Below, one piece after another: positions 7,201-29,392 of a stretch of 64,000 nt of DNA (position 1 is the first letter of the stretch; the number at the start of each line of letters is the position of its first letter). Both the position numbers and the translations under genes were made by a program. Source of the stretch: Allomuricauda sp. (lineage in GTDB: Bacteria; Bacteroidota; Bacteroidia; Flavobacteriales; Flavobacteriaceae). The stretch is taken from contig NZ_PABT01000049.1 in the NCBI RefSeq assembly GCF_002699205.1, positions 183,266-247,265 on the forward strand. Direction: 5' to 3'. A model generated the notes under the pieces. It saw only the letters and a list, made by a program, of their open reading frames with translations, made no database searches and was not told the DNA's origin.

Positions 7201-9769
7201 AATTTGAAAATGGCGCTAAATTTTTGGAAAACACATCAATGGAAAAATCACCCCCGCCTTCAAAAACTTTGGTGGTGAAAGTGGCTCTCAACATTCCAGG
7301 TGCATTGCCATTGATTTCTATTTTTTTATTGATGTCCAATTCACCGTTGGCATCCAATTGGGATGAGATCCATTGCAGTTCGGTCTCATTGAATGTTCGG
7401 GCAGGGTCTTGGAACACATAATCTTTGTATTTTGGAAATGCCACGGAGGACTGGCTCAATGTGGCATTGATATCGATTTTGAGGTTGCGGGCGGGAGCGC
7501 CGTGCAACCATTTTACCTCAGCTTTGCCTTTATTAAAAGAATTGGCTTCCAATACTTCATTTTCAAAAGCAAAATTCACTTTTAATCGATTTGGTTTCAC
7601 TGTGGCCACTTTTAAGCTTTTAGTGAACTGTGCGCCTCCAACAATCACTTTGGCCGACCAATTTCCTGTAGGGGCGGTTGCCTCTGTTGGGATGGGGAAA
7701 TAGTAGAAATTATTTTCCTTTTTGGCATAGTGACCATCGGAAATAGGAATACTCCCTTCTTTGAGTACATTACGCTGTACCAGTTTGCCGCGGGCGTCAT
7801 TCACCTCCAGAACAACAGGGTGCCCTTCGGGCAAAGGGTTGGCATTATCATCCAAAACAAAGGTCAAATGAATCACATCACCGGGTCGGTGAACCCCTCT
7901 TTCTGTATATAAATAGCCTTGCAAACCTTTCTGGAGCTGTTCCCCGGAAACATCAAACTTGCTAAGGGACAATGCGTTTCCATCTGAAAGTTTGGCGTAG
8001 GCAAAATTGTTGTTCTTTTCCGCCACGGCAAAAGCAATCCTTTTATCACTGTCAAAAATGGATAGTCCTGAGGCATCCGTAGTGGTTTCTCCGATAAGTT
8101 GTTGCTGGAAGTTGTAAAGCTTTATTTTGGCTCCGGCTTCGGGCTGGGTGGTGAGCAGATTGGTTACCGCAAAGTGGTACGAGCTGTTATTGCCTTTTTT
8201 TACGATAAGCCCTAAGTTGCTCCCCAGTAAGTTGGTGGCTGCGATCCTGTCATTATTATAGTAAGCGGAATGGCATGGATTGTCCCGTTCTTCCCAATTG
8301 TAGTCGTAGTTTCGATAATTGTATATTTCGTTATCCCAGTACAGTTCCTCTTTAGATGCTTCATCCGAAGTTTGTTCCAGTGCATACTCGGTAGTCGATT
8401 CCCCAGTTTCTGAACTTTCGCCACAATCATAAGTGGTGTGTTCTTTCTTAAAACTGAATTCCACTCGATATAATGAGCCTGGTTGAATTTGGATGAGTTT
8501 GGACAGATCCAGCCCGTGTGCTTGCCAATAACTTGTGTTTTCGTTGCCTTCATCCGTCAATGGGATTACTTTGTATGCCACCCTGCGTCCCACTGGTCTA
8601 AAATCTGGGTTGTAATTTTCCGTAAGATTATAGTTTTGCAGGTATTGTAGCATGTTGTTTTCATATACCTGTATTACCCTTACTTCAACGGCGGCAAGGT
8701 TGACCGTTTCAAAATAAATGGGCGTGGAGGTCGCATTGGGCAATATGGTTCCTTTGGAAATCAAGCGAACCGCTGGTTTTAACTGTTCAAAAGAGACCAA
8801 TTCGGAAAAGTTCTCCTTTAAGGTGAAGCCATATTCGCTTTTAATACCTTGAAATGCATTCACACGGACTTCTCCCAAAATTCGGTTGGACGGATAAACG
8901 CTCAAAACGTTTCCATTGATTTCATATCTAAGACTTTCCGCATTCTCGATGGTCACCAAACCGTTGAGGTTTTGGTCTTGCTTTAAGGGTTCCGAGAAAT
9001 TAAGGGTCAGTACGGCATTTGGTGAGGAAGTTGTCTTGGCATCAATTATCACGAATTTGTTTTTCCCGGGGATTGGATAGGTTTCCGAGCCTTCGTTGTC
9101 GATATCCAATGCCTTTCCGGTCCAATTGATGGTAAGCTCGCTATCTTCGGTCTTTCTGGGGATACTATCAATCTTAAAACTGAAGTACCGTGCATTATCA
9201 GTAGTATTGTCCCATTTTACGGGAATGTTTTTATCTCCTTGTTTTACCGAAAGTACCTTGTTTATTTTTGAGGCATCCAAAACGTCAGAAGCATCCAAAG
9301 TGCCCGTAACATATTGCCAATCTTTGCTGTACGATTGTAAATCACCGAGATTGATCCTGAAATTTGGTGCAATGGTCTTAAAACTGAAGGTATAGGTTTT
9401 AAACTCGTTATCAATATCTTGGAAGAGTTTATTGAGTTTCAGATTGATAGTGTATTCCGTGTTTGGCTTTAAATACTCTGAGGGTTGGAACAATAGCTCC
9501 CTACCATTTTCAATCATTAACTTTCCATCCACCTTTGGTGAAATCTCCAAGTACTCTTTGGGTAACTCTTGGGCCAATTCGTATTGCTCAAGCTGTTGGG
9601 CTAGGGCAATAGTGATGGGAGTGGAAATACTTTGTGTTCCGTTTGTATGATAACTGATATAGTCCTTGAACTTAAAAAGATTGTCGGTTTCTGAAGAACT
9701 GTCCTTTTTTTTGCAAGAAAATATAAGAATAAGAAAGGACAGAATAAGTGTTTTGTATGACCGGAACAT
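4208..9769 (-). CDS. Bacterial alpha-2-macroglobulin lipoprotein with thioester motif
   Basis: Very large (1853 residues) protease-trapping protein. The tracked ORF begins at 9805, but the methionine at 9769 gives a clean lipoprotein signal, MFRSYKTLILSFLILIFSCKKK, with a lipobox cysteine, so the mature protein is probably lipid-anchored. N-terminal macroglobulin-like beta domains precede the A2M core (LAVVDEGLLDLTRF), and the thioester motif CIEQ occurs in YPHGCIEQTTSAAFP at about residue 1411, followed by the alpha-helical thioester domain and a C-terminal beta domain. The reactive Cys and Gln are both kept, so covalent capture of proteases is plausible. It is the first gene of the operon with pbpC. 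The role in trapping proteases that enter after envelope damage is family knowledge. Confidence 0.93.
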   Translation of the reverse strand: MFRSYKTLILSFLILIFSCKKKDSSSETDNLFKFKDYISYHTNGTQSISTPITIALAQQLEQYELAQELPKEYLEISPKVDGKLMIENGRELLFQPSEYLKPNTEYTINLKLNKLFQDIDNEFKTYTFSFKTIAPNFRINLGDLQSYSKDWQYVTGTLDASDVLDASKINKVLSVKQGDKNIPVKWDNTTDNARYFSFKIDSIPRKTEDSELTINWTGKALDIDNEGSETYPIPGKNKFVIIDAKTTSSPNAVLTLNFSEPLKQDQNLNGLVTIENAESLRYEINGNVLSVYPSNRILGEVRVNAFQGIKSEYGFTLKENFSELVSFEQLKPAVRLISKGTILPNATSTPIYFETVNLAAVEVRVIQVYENNMLQYLQNYNLTENYNPDFRPVGRRVAYKVIPLTDEGNENTSYWQAHGLDLSKLIQIQPGSLYRVEFSFKKEHTTYDCGESSETGESTTEYALEQTSDEASKEELYWDNEIYNYRNYDYNWEERDNPCHSAYYNNDRIAATNLLGSNLGLIVKKGNNSSYHFAVTNLLTTQPEAGAKIKLYNFQQQLIGETTTDASGLSIFDSDKRIAFAVAEKNNNFAYAKLSDGNALSLSKFDVSGEQLQKGLQGYLYTERGVHRPGDVIHLTFVLDDNANPLPEGHPVVLEVNDARGKLVQRNVLKEGSIPISDGHYAKKENNFYYFPIPTEATAPTGNWSAKVIVGGAQFTKSLKVATVKPNRLKVNFAFENEVLEANSFNKGKAEVKWLHGAPARNLKIDINATLSQSSVAFPKYKDYVFQDPARTFNETELQWISSQLDANGELDINKKIEINGNAPGMLRATFTTKVFEGGGDFSIDVFSKNLAPFSNFVGLRSPKPRQYGSFLTDENNTFDVVTVDAQGNPSGNRKLKVHVFKIEWRWWWNRGYDNLSRYENATVHRPFKEMNITTESNGKANFNINIPDEEGGRYLIRVIDEVSGHATGRTAYFYQNWWRRPASADAESSKILIFSTDKEKYTLGEKATVTFPSDKGGRALVSIENGTEVLSQQWIETSSKETKATIPITAEMAPNAYVNISLLQPHSQAKNDLPIRLYGVVPLLVENPATFLEPVINMPDVLEPEKAFKVTVSEASKKPMTYSLAVVDEGLLDLTRFTTPDIHSSFYSRQALGVKTFDIFDDVMGAYSVSVDNIYAIGGGGIGSGAKNRKAQRFKPVVTYLGPFTLKAGEKASHTINMPNYVGSVRTMVVAGNQNSAYGNAEKTTPVRKPLMVLTSIPRKLSPGEKVTIPVTVFAMEPKVKNVKVSIDSGKALEPLNGTTKNITFNTVGEQIVNFDFKVNPATSFQTIKVTASGAGESASNETEIDVENPNPVTTKSELYTLEGNGTQTISMETFGTSGTNEAFIEFSTLPPMDFSKRMDYLLRYPHGCIEQTTSAAFPQLFLDDVLDITFDKKKDIEKNIKAAIDRLSDFQLSNGGLSYWPGYGSADDWGTSYAGHFMLEAKQEGYQLPLTFLSNWLRYQKNAARQWSNQSTYYNDDVSQAYRLYTLALAQQPELAAMNRLRETANLSNEAKWRLAAAYALVGKKEVAQAIAQKANINFTPNNYNYRTYGSVFRNRAMALETMVILGDSQQRELAVSLAKNLSSQRWYSTQETAFALLAMSKMVLKNGGKSIDLTFTNNGKKVTVKTDRAIAQRELAITSFKEEIEVKNNEGNTIYATLTQSGKLPVGEELAQQQNLRLTVNYVDPLGNSINVDELRQGTEFQAQVSIFNSSDDYIDNIALTHIVPSGWEIVDTSFAEGGNANTSAADYVDTRDDRTNLYFDLDAKKSKTFIIKLNASFLGEYYLPGAQAEAMYDNNYQARNKGKWVKIVQ

Positions 9770-9936
9770 GAGAAAGGAAGTGTTTGATTTATTAAAAAAA
9801 AGCATACAGCAAGATAATTAAAATTGCCCATCGACGGGGTAGAAATTGACAGATAGGCAGTTTGGATTTACGAATGGGGTCTATATTGATTTGTGCCCAA
9901 TTCAACTTTCAAACAAAAAAGTATTGGGGTATATAA

Positions 9937-9952
9937 AACCTTGATCAAGGTT
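9937..9952 (-). terminator. Perfect 16-bp palindrome over a stop codon, possible weak terminator
   Basis: AACCTTGATCAAGGTT is a perfect palindrome whose centre contains the TGA stop of the 9945-10427 gene. On the minus strand it continues into TTTTATAT, so it could form a short hairpin with a GATC loop and a weak U-tract. It could also be a protein-binding site. Confidence 0.35.
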
Positions 9953-10427
9953 GGGGAATATAAATTGTGATAAACAATGGAAGTTGACTTAGCTCAATTA
10001 AATCATGGGAAAAGTTATCTACTTCAACATTTTCTACTAAAGTGTAGGGTCCACAGCATTCTCCTCCTTCAGAAAAACTGGTATCAAAACTTATTGTAAA
10101 AGGATTTCCTCCTTCAAAATTCACCAAAAAGGATTTTGATCCAAAAGTTTCTATTGAAACAGGGACCTTTACATATGTTACAGTTGAATATTGCTCAATA
10201 CCAAAGCTTACTTCATTGTTTTGTTCATCTAAAATTTCTATGGAGGAAGCCTCAATGCTTTCATCCAACAAACTTTCGTCATTTTCAGGGTTTATCAACT
10301 CGATGTACAAATTGTTGTCGGCAGCTGCACATAGTACCAATGAACAATCCAGATTTGTTGGGTTGTCATCTGATTTACAGGAGTATATGAATGCTATCGT
10401 GATAAATAAAAGGAATGCATTTTTCAT
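9945..10427 (-). CDS. Hypothetical lipoprotein, 160 aa
   Basis: Starts MKNAFLLFITIAFIYSCKSDD, a typical Bacteroidota lipoprotein signal with cysteine at residue 17. The mature part is acidic, rich in beta-prone residues, and carries two cysteine pairs (LDCSLVLCAAAD and GGECCGPY). The layout resembles small flavobacterial secreted or lipoprotein genes of unknown role. It stands alone on the minus strand between the TPM gene and the alpha-2-macroglobulin gene. No family is recognised and no function is proposed. Confidence 0.8.
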   Translation of the reverse strand: MKNAFLLFITIAFIYSCKSDDNPTNLDCSLVLCAAADNNLYIELINPENDESLLDESIEASSIEILDEQNNEVSFGIEQYSTVTYVKVPVSIETFGSKSFLVNFEGGNPFTISFDTSFSEGGECCGPYTLVENVEVDNFSHDLIELSQLPLFITIYIPQP

Positions 10428-25749: not shown

Positions 25750-26475
25750 TTAAACGCTGAGTTGCAATTCAATTTCAGGCATTTCATCATAGGTTCTTCC
25801 ATTTAGTATTCTTCCATTTTTCTTTTTGTTTTTTCCGCCCCATTGTTTGAAAAAGAAGGCAACATCCGACTTTTCACATTGCTCTTGTATATCAAGCACC
25901 CAATCTGCATCCATTGGTCTTGGATTATGTCCGCTTTCTCCACCAACAATAACCCAATCAATATTGTCAAGATTCATATTTGGAAGTGGTCCGATTAGAG
26001 GTTCCAATGATAGGAATTTTACCCTTGCGTTTGTTTCTCTCAGAAAGTCAATTCTATTTTCTACTTTTTGTTCTTCAACTGAAACACCCATCCAAATATT
26101 ATGAGTCCATTTTAATTCTTGATGAAGTTCTTTTAGTCTTTCGGCTCTTTTGGTCAAAACTTGAAAAACGTGTTGCGGATTTTCATTCATTACTGTAAAA
26201 ACCTTTTGAATAAATTCAAGGGGAATTTTTTCGTGAAATAAATCACTCATTGAGTTTACGAAAACAACTTTTGATTTCTTCCAAGTGTATGGCGTTTTCA
26301 AGGCGTCTTCGTGAGTTTTAACCTCAAAATTATCTTTGTACTTTTCAACACCCATTGCTTGCAGTCTTTTAGACATTATTTCCGCATAACAAAATTTACA
26401 ACCTTGAGATATTTTGGTACAACCAGTTGTTGGATTCCAAGTCATTTCTGTCCATTCGATACTTGATTGTGCCAT
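25750..26475 (-). CDS. Gp37/Gp68-type (DUF5131) three-Cys-motif protein
   Basis: 241 residues. The N-terminus carries SSIEWTEMTWNPTTGCTKIS followed by the cysteine cluster C-x5-C-x2-C in GCTKISQGCKFCYAE, a radical-SAM-like iron-sulfur motif with unusual spacing. Other family blocks are VFVNSMSDLFHEKIP, MGVSVEEQ, FLSLEPLIGPLP, DWVIVGGESG and FFFKQWGG. Called phage Gp37/Gp68 or DUF5131, it is generally found beside a TcmP partner, as here. Its ATG shares a base with the tcmP stop (TAATG), so the two are co-translated. Activity is unknown; nucleoside or RNA modification is a guess from the radical-SAM resemblance. Confidence 0.88.
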   Translation of the reverse strand: MAQSSIEWTEMTWNPTTGCTKISQGCKFCYAEIMSKRLQAMGVEKYKDNFEVKTHEDALKTPYTWKKSKVVFVNSMSDLFHEKIPLEFIQKVFTVMNENPQHVFQVLTKRAERLKELHQELKWTHNIWMGVSVEEQKVENRIDFLRETNARVKFLSLEPLIGPLPNMNLDNIDWVIVGGESGHNPRPMDADWVLDIQEQCEKSDVAFFFKQWGGKNKKKNGRILNGRTYDEMPEIELQLSV

Positions 26476-27590
26476 TATTTAAGTTTTATAGTTAGTTTAT
26501 TAAAGTGCTTTTTATATTCTTTGTAATTTACATAAAAAGCTCCTTTTCTAATATTTGTATTGTCTTTTTTTGTTATTTCTAGTCTATTACCAGATTGAAG
26601 TTTTTTTAATATTTGAATGGAATGTTTTGGCAGAAACCCTTCTCTTAAAGTAAATTCATAAATTTCTCCGTTGGTTCTTGACCCTTTTAAGTAATCAAGT
26701 AATAATTCTTCAAGTCTATTTGTTTCTAAAACTGAAAAAAGTGTTGATTGTCCACTATCATATTTCCAGCCACGACCTTGTTCATTATCTATGTCCCATT
26801 TGGTTTCTAACATTTTTTCGTAACCTCGAATGTGGGAACTAAAGAAAAACAAACAGAAAACAGTATTTTCTTCTTTTTTTAGGGTGAAGCTGTCAACGAA
26901 ATATTCATTACCAATAAACTTTTGAAAACCGTCTTTTAAGGCGCGAATATATTCCCATTCATTCTTTAAATGTTCCTTGTCAATGCCAAGTTGCTTGTTG
27001 AAACTCTCCAATACTCCTGGCGTTCCAGATTTAGAAAATCTATACATAAATTGAATAGGTAGCCACAATAGAACTTCCGAATTATTGTTACAGTCCAGTA
27101 AATTTAAAATGTGTTCAGCTTTTATTTCCTTATATCCAAATGGGTCAATAAATACAAAGGCTTTAGTGTCCTTGAATTTTTGAAATTTACTAGGAAGTTC
27201 TTTTACGATTTCAAGGTAATCTTTATTGATTAAATTTAAAGTTCCATAGTTAGGATAATGTAATTTGTTTTCTTTTATATACTTTTCAAGTGTATTGATT
27301 CTCTCTTTGTCAATATCATTAAAATGACAATGAATTTGAGGTGATTTTACTTCTCGTTTGTCTATAAATTGATAGAAAGTTTGCTTTACTTTTTTCAAAG
27401 CAATTACCGGGCTTCCTTCTCCACCATTTTCATAAACTCCAGGTCCACAGAATAAGTCAACTATATGGATTGCTTTCGTGTATCCGTCATTGCAAATAAT
27501 ATTCAAATATTTCTGAATGTAGTCTCCAAATAGCTTGACCTTCGCTTCGGAATGGTTTAATAAATTTATCTGTGATTTCTTATCGCTCAT
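26475..27590 (-). CDS. tcmP: Three-Cys-motif partner protein TcmP
   Basis: 371 residues. The N-terminal half has a Rossmann methyltransferase-like layout: HIVDLFCGPGVYENGGEGSP (motif I-like), IHCHFNDIDKERI, then AFVFIDPFGYKEIK (DPFG in the motif IV position). The C-terminal region has SHIRGYEKMLETKWDID and a small winged-helix-like end (RTNGEIYEFTLREGFLPKHSIQILKKL). It is encoded immediately upstream of, and overlaps, its partner Gp37/DUF5131. The pair is AT-rich relative to hemL and lies between hemL and the fulvocin-like operon, so recent acquisition is likely. Substrate and function are not known. Confidence 0.88.
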   Translation of the reverse strand: MSDKKSQINLLNHSEAKVKLFGDYIQKYLNIICNDGYTKAIHIVDLFCGPGVYENGGEGSPVIALKKVKQTFYQFIDKREVKSPQIHCHFNDIDKERINTLEKYIKENKLHYPNYGTLNLINKDYLEIVKELPSKFQKFKDTKAFVFIDPFGYKEIKAEHILNLLDCNNNSEVLLWLPIQFMYRFSKSGTPGVLESFNKQLGIDKEHLKNEWEYIRALKDGFQKFIGNEYFVDSFTLKKEENTVFCLFFFSSHIRGYEKMLETKWDIDNEQGRGWKYDSGQSTLFSVLETNRLEELLLDYLKGSRTNGEIYEFTLREGFLPKHSIQILKKLQSGNRLEITKKDNTNIRKGAFYVNYKEYKKHFNKLTIKLK

Positions 27591-27878: not shown

Positions 27879-28727
27879 TTAGGGTTGAAGTATAAGTCCT
27901 TCTTGATGGATAATTTTTCTTAGTTGCTTATCCAAATTGTCAATATATATACTTTCTCCGGTAACAAAGTTACCGCTGTAAATTATTGTGCTGTCCTTTA
28001 GGATAATTAAGTGAGGATAAGCATTAAAGTCCAAAGCCTCCTGTACTTTTTTCATAGGTCCACCGTAAATGGTGGTGTAGGAGTAATTCAATTTTGCTTC
28101 TACTTTTGACCGCTCTTCAAAACTTTGGTTTTTTAAAGGTATGTTCACCGAGTAGAAGGCAATATCCGGCTGTTGGTATTTTTCACTGATTTTTTCGTAG
28201 TAAGGGAATTTTTCAAAACAAGGTTTGCAGGAGGTGTTCCAAAAGTCCAAAACAATTATTTTGCTGCCAAACCGAACAGTGTCCTTATACTTATCGGTAA
28301 AAACGAGTTCTTTTGGAAACGGCTTGGTGTCATAAAATTTAGAGTCGTCCACTAGGGCCAAAAGCACGCTGGGGTATCCAAATTTCCCCAAAAACACGGC
28401 CAATAGTATAGTAAAGGTCAATTTGGGCATAAAATGTGCTTTTTTTGCCCAACGTCCTAGGAGAATACAAACGGGTATAAAAGCCAAATAGAGGATGGAT
28501 CGTTTGAAATCCATTTCAATTAACGAAGGAACCAAAATTAACAACCAAAGAGGTATAAAGACCAAGAGCATTCGTTTTATTCCCTCTTTCACATAATAAG
28601 CGGTCAAAAAGCAAGCGATAAGGGTGAGCGGCAACATATAAAAGTGGTCCCCATAAAAGATGACTCCGGCCAGTATGTAGATGAGGGGAACAACAAAGTA
28701 TTTAAGTTTTTGGAAAACTAACTTCAT
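27879..28727 (-). CDS. Polytopic membrane protein with C-terminal TlpA-like thioredoxin domain
   Basis: 282 residues. Four or five hydrophobic segments fill residues 1-125 (YFVVPLIYILAGVIFYG, MLPLTLIACFLTAYYV, MLLVFIPLWLLILVP, ILYLAFIPVCILLG, LTFTILLAVFLG). A thioredoxin fold follows at about 145-275 with the active site FWNTSCKPCFEKFPYY (CxxC) and the cis-Pro loop AYPHLIILKDS. The domain probably faces the periplasm. It is the second gene after the fulvocin-like precursor, 47 bases downstream, and could form or isomerise that protein's disulfides, or give self-protection. Its partner role is inferred from context only. Confidence 0.85.
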   Translation of the reverse strand: MKLVFQKLKYFVVPLIYILAGVIFYGDHFYMLPLTLIACFLTAYYVKEGIKRMLLVFIPLWLLILVPSLIEMDFKRSILYLAFIPVCILLGRWAKKAHFMPKLTFTILLAVFLGKFGYPSVLLALVDDSKFYDTKPFPKELVFTDKYKDTVRFGSKIIVLDFWNTSCKPCFEKFPYYEKISEKYQQPDIAFYSVNIPLKNQSFEERSKVEAKLNYSYTTIYGGPMKKVQEALDFNAYPHLIILKDSTIIYSGNFVTGESIYIDNLDKQLRKIIHQEGLILQP

Positions 28728-28744
28728 AATTTAATGTATTTCTA

Positions 28745-28762
28745 CTCCTGATTTTTCAGGAG
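28745..28762 (-). promoter_or_regulatory. Intercistronic hairpin between precursor and thioredoxin genes
   Basis: CTCCTGA and TCAGGAG form a perfect 7-bp stem with a 4-base loop in the 47-base spacer. There is no U-tract after it on the minus strand, so it may attenuate transcription or stabilise the upstream mRNA rather than terminate. Confidence 0.5.
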
Positions 28763-28774
28763 CAGAATTTGTGA

Positions 28775-29392
28775 CTAAACTTTTTCAACACAACTTTGAA
28801 GCCATAAGAACCCACATCCTGTTGTGGTTTCATTGCAATTGGTGTCGGAATAACCGTTGTTGTACCAATCACAGGTCCAGCTACAATTGCAATCAACCGA
28901 CTTACTAGTCAAGCTGGTCTTCTTCGTTTCAAACGATCCTATGTTTAGCAAGTTTTCCTGTAATTGAATTGAAATGAAACTATCGTGAAATTCTCCGTTA
29001 ACCTTTGGTGAATAGTCATCTAAGTTGCCAAACATCATCAGGAAATCATGTTCTGGGGTTATCTTAGCCAGGTCTACAGCCAATGAAGTTATTTCCTCCA
29101 TATTTGGAGAATCCTCTTTTAACTGTTGGGATAGTTTTTGAATTAAATCTGTATGGTTCTCAGATAGATTTAACTTTTTTAACTGATTGAGTTTTTCAAC
29201 CCATAAATCAATTTTAGTCGAATTTTCGAGATTTGCATAATCACTTTTTACTTGTTTATATGCTTTATCCTTTAAAAAAGTTGCTCGTAATTCATCAGTT
29301 TCATCGGACAAATCATTTTGTGGATCAGAACAAGAAGTGAATAATACAATTGCGATAATAACGAGGTTAAGTGTTTTATGATAATTGGACAT
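28775..29392 (-). CDS. Fulvocin-C-related cysteine-rich bacteriocin-like precursor
   Basis: 205 residues. Lipoprotein-type signal MSNYHKTLNLVIIAIVLFTSC, a helical middle of about 145 residues with no cysteine, then a C-terminal module with all six remaining cysteines: VDCNCSWTCDWYNNG, TNCNETTTGCGFLWLQSC. Fulvocin C from Myxococcus fulvus is a 45-residue disulfide-bonded bacteriocin; from memory it has the same NCSC-like start, a central Cys, then TGCG-x-(2)-W and a final Cys. NCBI uses the name bacteriocin fulvocin C-related protein for Bacteroidota proteins with this layout. It heads an operon with a membrane thioredoxin. Toxic activity is inference; the long helical part could be a leader or a carrier. 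Confidence 0.75.
   Translation of the reverse strand: MSNYHKTLNLVIIAIVLFTSCSDPQNDLSDETDELRATFLKDKAYKQVKSDYANLENSTKIDLWVEKLNQLKKLNLSENHTDLIQKLSQQLKEDSPNMEEITSLAVDLAKITPEHDFLMMFGNLDDYSPKVNGEFHDSFISIQLQENLLNIGSFETKKTSLTSKSVDCNCSWTCDWYNNGYSDTNCNETTTGCGFLWLQSCVEKV

Follow-up and report, generated by a model that had tools for sequence, protein, structure and literature searches.

A candidate lipid-anchored precursor of the fulvocin C type and its membrane-thioredoxin partner in Bacteroidota

Results and Discussion

Within the analyzed stretch of DNA (64,000 nucleotides, referred to below as the window) we identified an open reading frame encoding a lipoprotein-type precursor, which is homologous to fulvocin-type proteins of Myxococcota over two domains, a helical one and a C-terminal cysteine module, and is followed by a gene for a membrane-anchored thioredoxin-like protein. 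Our preferred explanation, to which we give about an even chance, is that the precursor is a lipid-anchored bacteriocin of the fulvocin C type, whose disulfide module would be handled by the dedicated membrane thioredoxin and freed by cleavage. The precursor gene and its parts are as follows:

28775–29392, minus strand: fulvocin-C-related lipoprotein precursor, 205 aa, ATG start (NF033852, 77.6 bits, E 1.7e-21; 24-sequence alignment)
29330–29392, minus strand: lipoprotein signal peptide, ending in the lipobox FTSC (residues 18–21) with the predicted lipidated Cys21, then S-D-P-Q-N-D (from sequence)
29036–29260, minus strand: helical domain, putatively a pro- or carrier domain, approx. residues 45–119 (AlphaFold2 pLDDT approx. 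80–93 for residues 50–110; homology to the Myxococcota helical domain)
28892–28945, minus strand: hypervariable linker, approx. residues 150–167, presumed cleavage site (indels and low within-genus identity; low-confidence coil)
28778–28891, minus strand: six-cysteine fulvocin-type module, residues 168–205, presumed active peptide (invariant cysteines, spacing, dN)

Relationship to fulvocin C

Fulvocin C is an antibacterial peptide of myxobacteria, known as a free module of 45 amino acids; the peptide of Myxococcus fulvus was reportedly sequenced by Tsai and Hirsch in 1981. What we take to be the 45-residue mature sequence was used only as a lead; it gained support from the matches in Myxococcus sp. 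CA023 and in L060 described below.

The window protein matched the NCBIfam model NF033852 ("fulvocin_rel") well above the curated cut-off of 35 bits, with residues 50–203 aligned to positions 3–147 of the 150-position profile, and is, as judged from its sequence, a member of this family over both the helical part and the cysteine module. The family (bacteriocin fulvocin C-related protein) is named by similarity only. The presumed mature peptide itself matched positions 108–148 of the model (E 1.1e-6), and the window module could be aligned directly with it (34% over 35 aa; E 7e-5 in a single comparison). Profile–profile alignment (hhalign) of 12 Bacteroidota and 13 Myxococcota sequences gave a probability of 99.5% and E 4e-23 over 144 columns spanning both domains. 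That the module resembles mature fulvocin C had been noticed from the sequence alone, and is borne out by the family match, the peptide match and the profile–profile comparison.

Intact members matching the whole NF033852 model were present in 14 of 195 Myxococcota genomes. The Myxococcota protein L060 (205 aa) contains a signal peptide, then a helical domain and finally a fulvocin C-like C-terminus, the last 45 residues of which share 77% identity with the presumed peptide in an alignment of 43 residues. The linker of the window protein corresponds to the place where mature fulvocin C starts. The sequence-only reading had called the long helical stretch unusual for a bacteriocin leader. This view had to be given up, since the domain is also encoded by the intact fulvocin-type genes of Myxococcota, and the long precursor is therefore the norm of the family and not an aberration.

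A genome-wide scan for the module, performed with a two-row alignment, found one locus, in Myxococcus sp. CA023, which contains a stretch 90% identical to the presumed peptide. The fulvocin C-like gene at this locus (L039:7968-8150) is a pseudogene: a frameshift interrupts the module, and there is no intact precursor. The gene-encoded C-termini of L060, L062 and L039 read ACNGDCLY or PCNGDCLY and the presumed 1981 peptide ends in CACNGNFY; this may reflect errors at the end of the published sequence, or of the version used here, or a difference between strains.

PMC8708641 cites the sequence paper of 1981. We found no published description of the fulvocin C gene, its precursor or the protection of the producer, nor, in the papers searched, any description of the anatomy, precursor layout or partner genes of NF033852; our literature search also returned no papers on its Bacteroidota members. 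To our knowledge, no antibacterial activity is known for any of the latter. The window protein gave nothing significant against Pfam, PHROGs and PADLOC and only chance-level matches to the PDB by sequence profile, and no relatives of it were found in phages, viral contigs or plasmids.

The cysteine module

Besides Cys21, the window protein contains six cysteines (168, 170, 174, 186, 193 and 201), all of them within the last 38 residues and in the order CNCS, C, C, TGCG, C, in agreement with the original observation. C168, C170, C186, C193, G194 and C201 are invariant in the alignment of 24 Bacteroidota and Myxococcota sequences, which argues that the arrangement is not a product of chance.

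The module is homologous to that of fulvocin C (CxC, C, C, C, GCG, C), but the window protein differs from fulvocin C in having (i) a lipobox, (ii) six instead of eight cysteines, and (iii) a membrane-thioredoxin partner. All eight-cysteine members of the family follow the pattern C-1-C-n-C-n-C-n-C-n-C(in GCG or variant)-7-C-3/4-C. In the four members from the genus of the window the pattern is C-1-C-3-C-11-C-6-C-7-C, the fourth and eighth cysteines (C4 and C8) being absent, and the eight cysteines and four disulfides of fulvocin C are thus not found in the window module. The joint loss suggests that C4 and C8 pair with each other, but it represents a single event.

Module sequences of the four congeners are 90–97% identical, in contrast to 50–65% for the preceding region, and the dN values within the genus are 0.02–0.06 and 0.22–0.42, respectively (dS is mostly saturated); the protein sequence of the module evolves approximately tenfold more slowly. 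The linker carries indels within the genus. For the window protein, AlphaFold2 gave a mean pLDDT of 58, with the module below 50, and for this reason no disulfide pattern is claimed. The model of L060 shows a confident helical domain (30–146), a weak linker and a short-stranded module (pLDDT mostly 70–90), and a Foldseek search with the well-predicted Myxococcota homologue retrieved no known fold or solved relative (best E 1.7). The hypervariable linker, the contrasting rates and the two-domain model of the Myxococcota homologue show that the module is separable from the rest of the chain. This is further supported by weak relatives from G505 and G666, placed below the family cut-off, which keep the same helical domain and carry another cysteine module (CFWC...GPC).

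These relatives (L037:2842-3276 and 9426-10019; L038:7854-8462) each adjoin a gene for a secreted protein of approx. 275 aa without a Pfam match, and may be a further type of toxin that uses this precursor scaffold.

Lipid anchoring

A lipobox-like site is present in all of the Bacteroidota members examined, in place of the AxA-type secretion signal of most Myxococcota members. The acid-rich SDPQND that follows Cys21 loosely resembles SDDFE, the surface export signal of Flavobacterium johnsoniae (PMC5080379), which makes surface display of the window protein possible, as far as the sequence can indicate. The sequence-only reading had considered a toxin anchored at the surface and released by cleavage, and this is plausible. 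The lipobox and the resemblance to SDDFE would also suit a contact-dependent toxin, anchored by its lipid at the cell surface and active without cleavage. We consider such a toxin very improbable: fulvocin C is known as a free module of 45 amino acids, and the variable linker is modelled as a low-confidence coil.

The membrane-thioredoxin partner

Immediately downstream of the precursor gene the following features were found:

28734–28770, minus strand: intercistronic RNA hairpin between the precursor and partner genes, approximate limits, no U-tract (z −5.5)
27879–28727, minus strand: partner, 282 aa, approximately five membrane spans and a C-terminal thioredoxin-like domain (Pfam Thioredoxin, 29.6 bits; hydropathy)
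28218–28229, minus strand: CKPC redox site of the partner, residues 167–170 (C167 and C170 invariant in 11 homologues)

The partner gene, which the sequence-only reading had not mentioned, starts 47 bp downstream of the precursor gene on the same strand, and the two are probably co-transcribed. A hairpin of 9–12 bp separates both genes in all four congeners that carry the pair (z −5.5 in the window and −3.6, −4.1 and −4.0 in the other three), with differing stem sequences; it may set the ratio of the precursor to the partner product. The membrane part of the partner has no conserved cysteines for passing electrons.

The partner adjoins a fulvocin gene in the window and in G408, G445, G1031, G620, G540, G708, G596, G568 (two copies), G510 and G592. 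A DUF1573 lipoprotein gene follows the partner in G620, G540, G708 and G596, and in G675 and G029 it is a neighbour of the fulvocin gene. Nine of 400 genomes of the same family contain the close partner subfamily (E <= 1e-79), and in eight of the nine it adjoins a fulvocin gene (Fisher p 1.7e-12); this linkage figure is partly circular, since the rows of the partner model were taken from fulvocin loci, and the informative part of the linkage is the absence of close partner copies from the other genomes. Loci L031 and L036 were detected with a model that had been built without them. Among the 73 congeners, four of five partners adjoin the fulvocin gene, the exception being G412.

A general role for such thioredoxins as partners was rejected: the weaker homologues (E approx. 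1e-32 and above) are not located beside a cysteine module in the loci read, G675 apart, so that only the close subfamily appears to be dedicated. No such partner was found near the fulvocin-type genes of G814, G672 and the Streptomyces plasmids, or in the loci read in Myxococcota, whose genes mostly encode a secretion signal.

On large Streptomyces plasmids (L146–L149), the fulvocin_rel genes are 33–42% identical to the myxobacterial precursor and have no thioredoxin gene listed alongside. The Myxococcota genes closest to fulvocin C precede a gene for a membrane-anchored protein resembling neutral/alkaline ceramidases (L060:8103-9410, L062:5589-6920, L039:8161-9618; assigned by PF04734 in L060 and L062 and by eye in L039), which is a candidate partner of another kind.

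Maturation or immunity

DsbB was found in none of 26 genomes, and VKOR was not detected in the window genome or in G408, so that a disulfide peptide produced in these two would need a helper of its own. A comparable situation is found in the bacteroidetocins (class IIf), which are likewise disulfide peptide toxins of Bacteroidota: a five-TM protein and a thiol oxidoreductase are encoded in their regions, and each of them is required for full toxin activity but neither confers immunity (PMC6671954). To judge by layout (hydropathy and CxxC), these two functions seem to be joined in the single partner of the window. The peptides are of different types, as bacteroidetocins are exported by means of a 15-aa double-glycine leader and a C39 peptidase ABC transporter, whereas the 205-aa window precursor carries a lipoprotein signal and has no such transporter among the adjacent genes. 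As the bacteroidetocin helpers are needed for activity and do not protect, and DsbB and VKOR were not detected, we place maturation first among the roles of the partner and immunity second.

According to the latter interpretation, the partner is the immunity factor of the same bacteriocin, an inner-membrane protein that reduces or captures the toxin module and so protects the producer and its non-producing relatives. Its position directly downstream of the toxin gene is reminiscent of Rfab1 and BcpI, the immunity proteins encoded next to Fab1 and BcpT, respectively (PMC8406203, PMC9308784). Moreover, orphan partners with an intact CxxC are present in G412 and G753, and resemble the orphan rfab1 immunity genes that have been described (PMC8406203). 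The locus of G412 shares 88–94% DNA identity with that of its close relative G1031, which has both genes; in G412 the same upstream region leads straight into the intact partner, the fulvocin gene being missing, and the two partner genes differ by dN 0.032 and dS 0.232. In G753, which belongs to another genus, tblastn revealed no fulvocin remnant. A pure maturation factor should not persist without its toxin, and the two orphans count against that role in its pure form. However, there are only two of them, the toxin genes may have been lost recently and the partners may be disappearing in turn, the genome of G753 has a completeness of 88%, and the bacteroidetocin proteins do not protect. We thus regard an immunity role as tentative and rather unlikely. 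Doubtful to a slightly greater degree is the specific proposal of redox-based immunity, in which the membrane-anchored thioredoxin would disarm a disulfide-knotted toxin by reduction and non-producers would keep an orphan thioredoxin.

Genomic context and distribution

The pair occupies a slot between SatD/DUF3307 and the gene for glutamate-1-semialdehyde aminotransferase, and both genes are missing from most congeners, the fulvocin gene being found in four of 73. The GC content of the pair (34% and 38%) is below that of the flanking genes (44–51%), and decayed fulvocin-type copies occur in G708, G131 and G834. Patchiness, low GC content and decay are the habits of accessory competition genes and not of housekeeping ones, and the accessory nature of the pair fits a competition gene.

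These habits also bear on the idea that the precursor is a domesticated, non-toxic lipoprotein, i.e. a periplasmic or surface protein that is rich in cysteines and functions in redox chemistry, stress or structure, acting together with the thioredoxin and DUF1573. The module is nearly invariant within the genus, unlike that of an arms-race toxin, the genus has lost two cysteines, and DUF1573 proteins have Cys-Gly-Cys motifs of a redox type, of which versions with selenocysteine have been reported (PMC9312934). Given the patchy presence, the GC content of the fulvocin gene and the decayed copies, we nevertheless consider domestication unlikely.

In G708 (L033/L119) and G131 (L024) the fulvocin-type genes are decayed by stops or frameshifts, which is typical of accessory genes. 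The next two genes of the window (25750–27590; TcmP-like and DUF5131, GC content 30–35%) match PDC-M30A/B, a candidate defence system in PADLOC. In G412 the slot is occupied by PDC-S46, so that it seems to be a hotspot of defence and competition genes.

Proposed mode of action

According to the bacteriocin reading that we prefer, a precursor of the fulvocin C type would have been turned into a lipoprotein in Bacteroidota. It would be exported by Sec, lipidated at Cys21 and transported to the outer membrane, possibly to its outer face, with the helical domain serving as a carrier or pro-domain. Three disulfides (four in most relatives) would form in the C-terminal module, which would act as the antibacterial peptide once cleavage in the variable linker had released it. 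The membrane thioredoxin, assisted by DUF1573 in relatives, would handle the disulfides of the module in the periplasm. Its most likely role is that of a dedicated maturation factor, as suggested by the lack of detectable DsbB or VKOR in the window genome.

By analogy, the bacteroidetocin helper proteins and the lipoprotein protoxin BcpT provide precedents. BcpT is an SpII lipoprotein toxin of 499 aa activated by proteolysis (PMC9308784), and BcpT and Fab1 of Bacteroidales, protoxins activated by C11-type proteolysis and encoded with an adjacent immunity gene, are by description comparable to the system proposed for the window, BcpT also in being a lipoprotein; the toxin candidate of the window, in contrast to the 499-aa protein, is a small cysteine-rich module.

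If the partner does reduce the toxin, this would represent a redox form of bacteriocin immunity, of which our literature search found no description. The helical domain with its C-terminal module provides a candidate architecture for the precursor of fulvocin C, and the Bacteroidota proteins form a lipid-anchored branch of the fulvocin family, in which the naming of a membrane-thioredoxin partner turns maturation and immunity into two-gene experiments.
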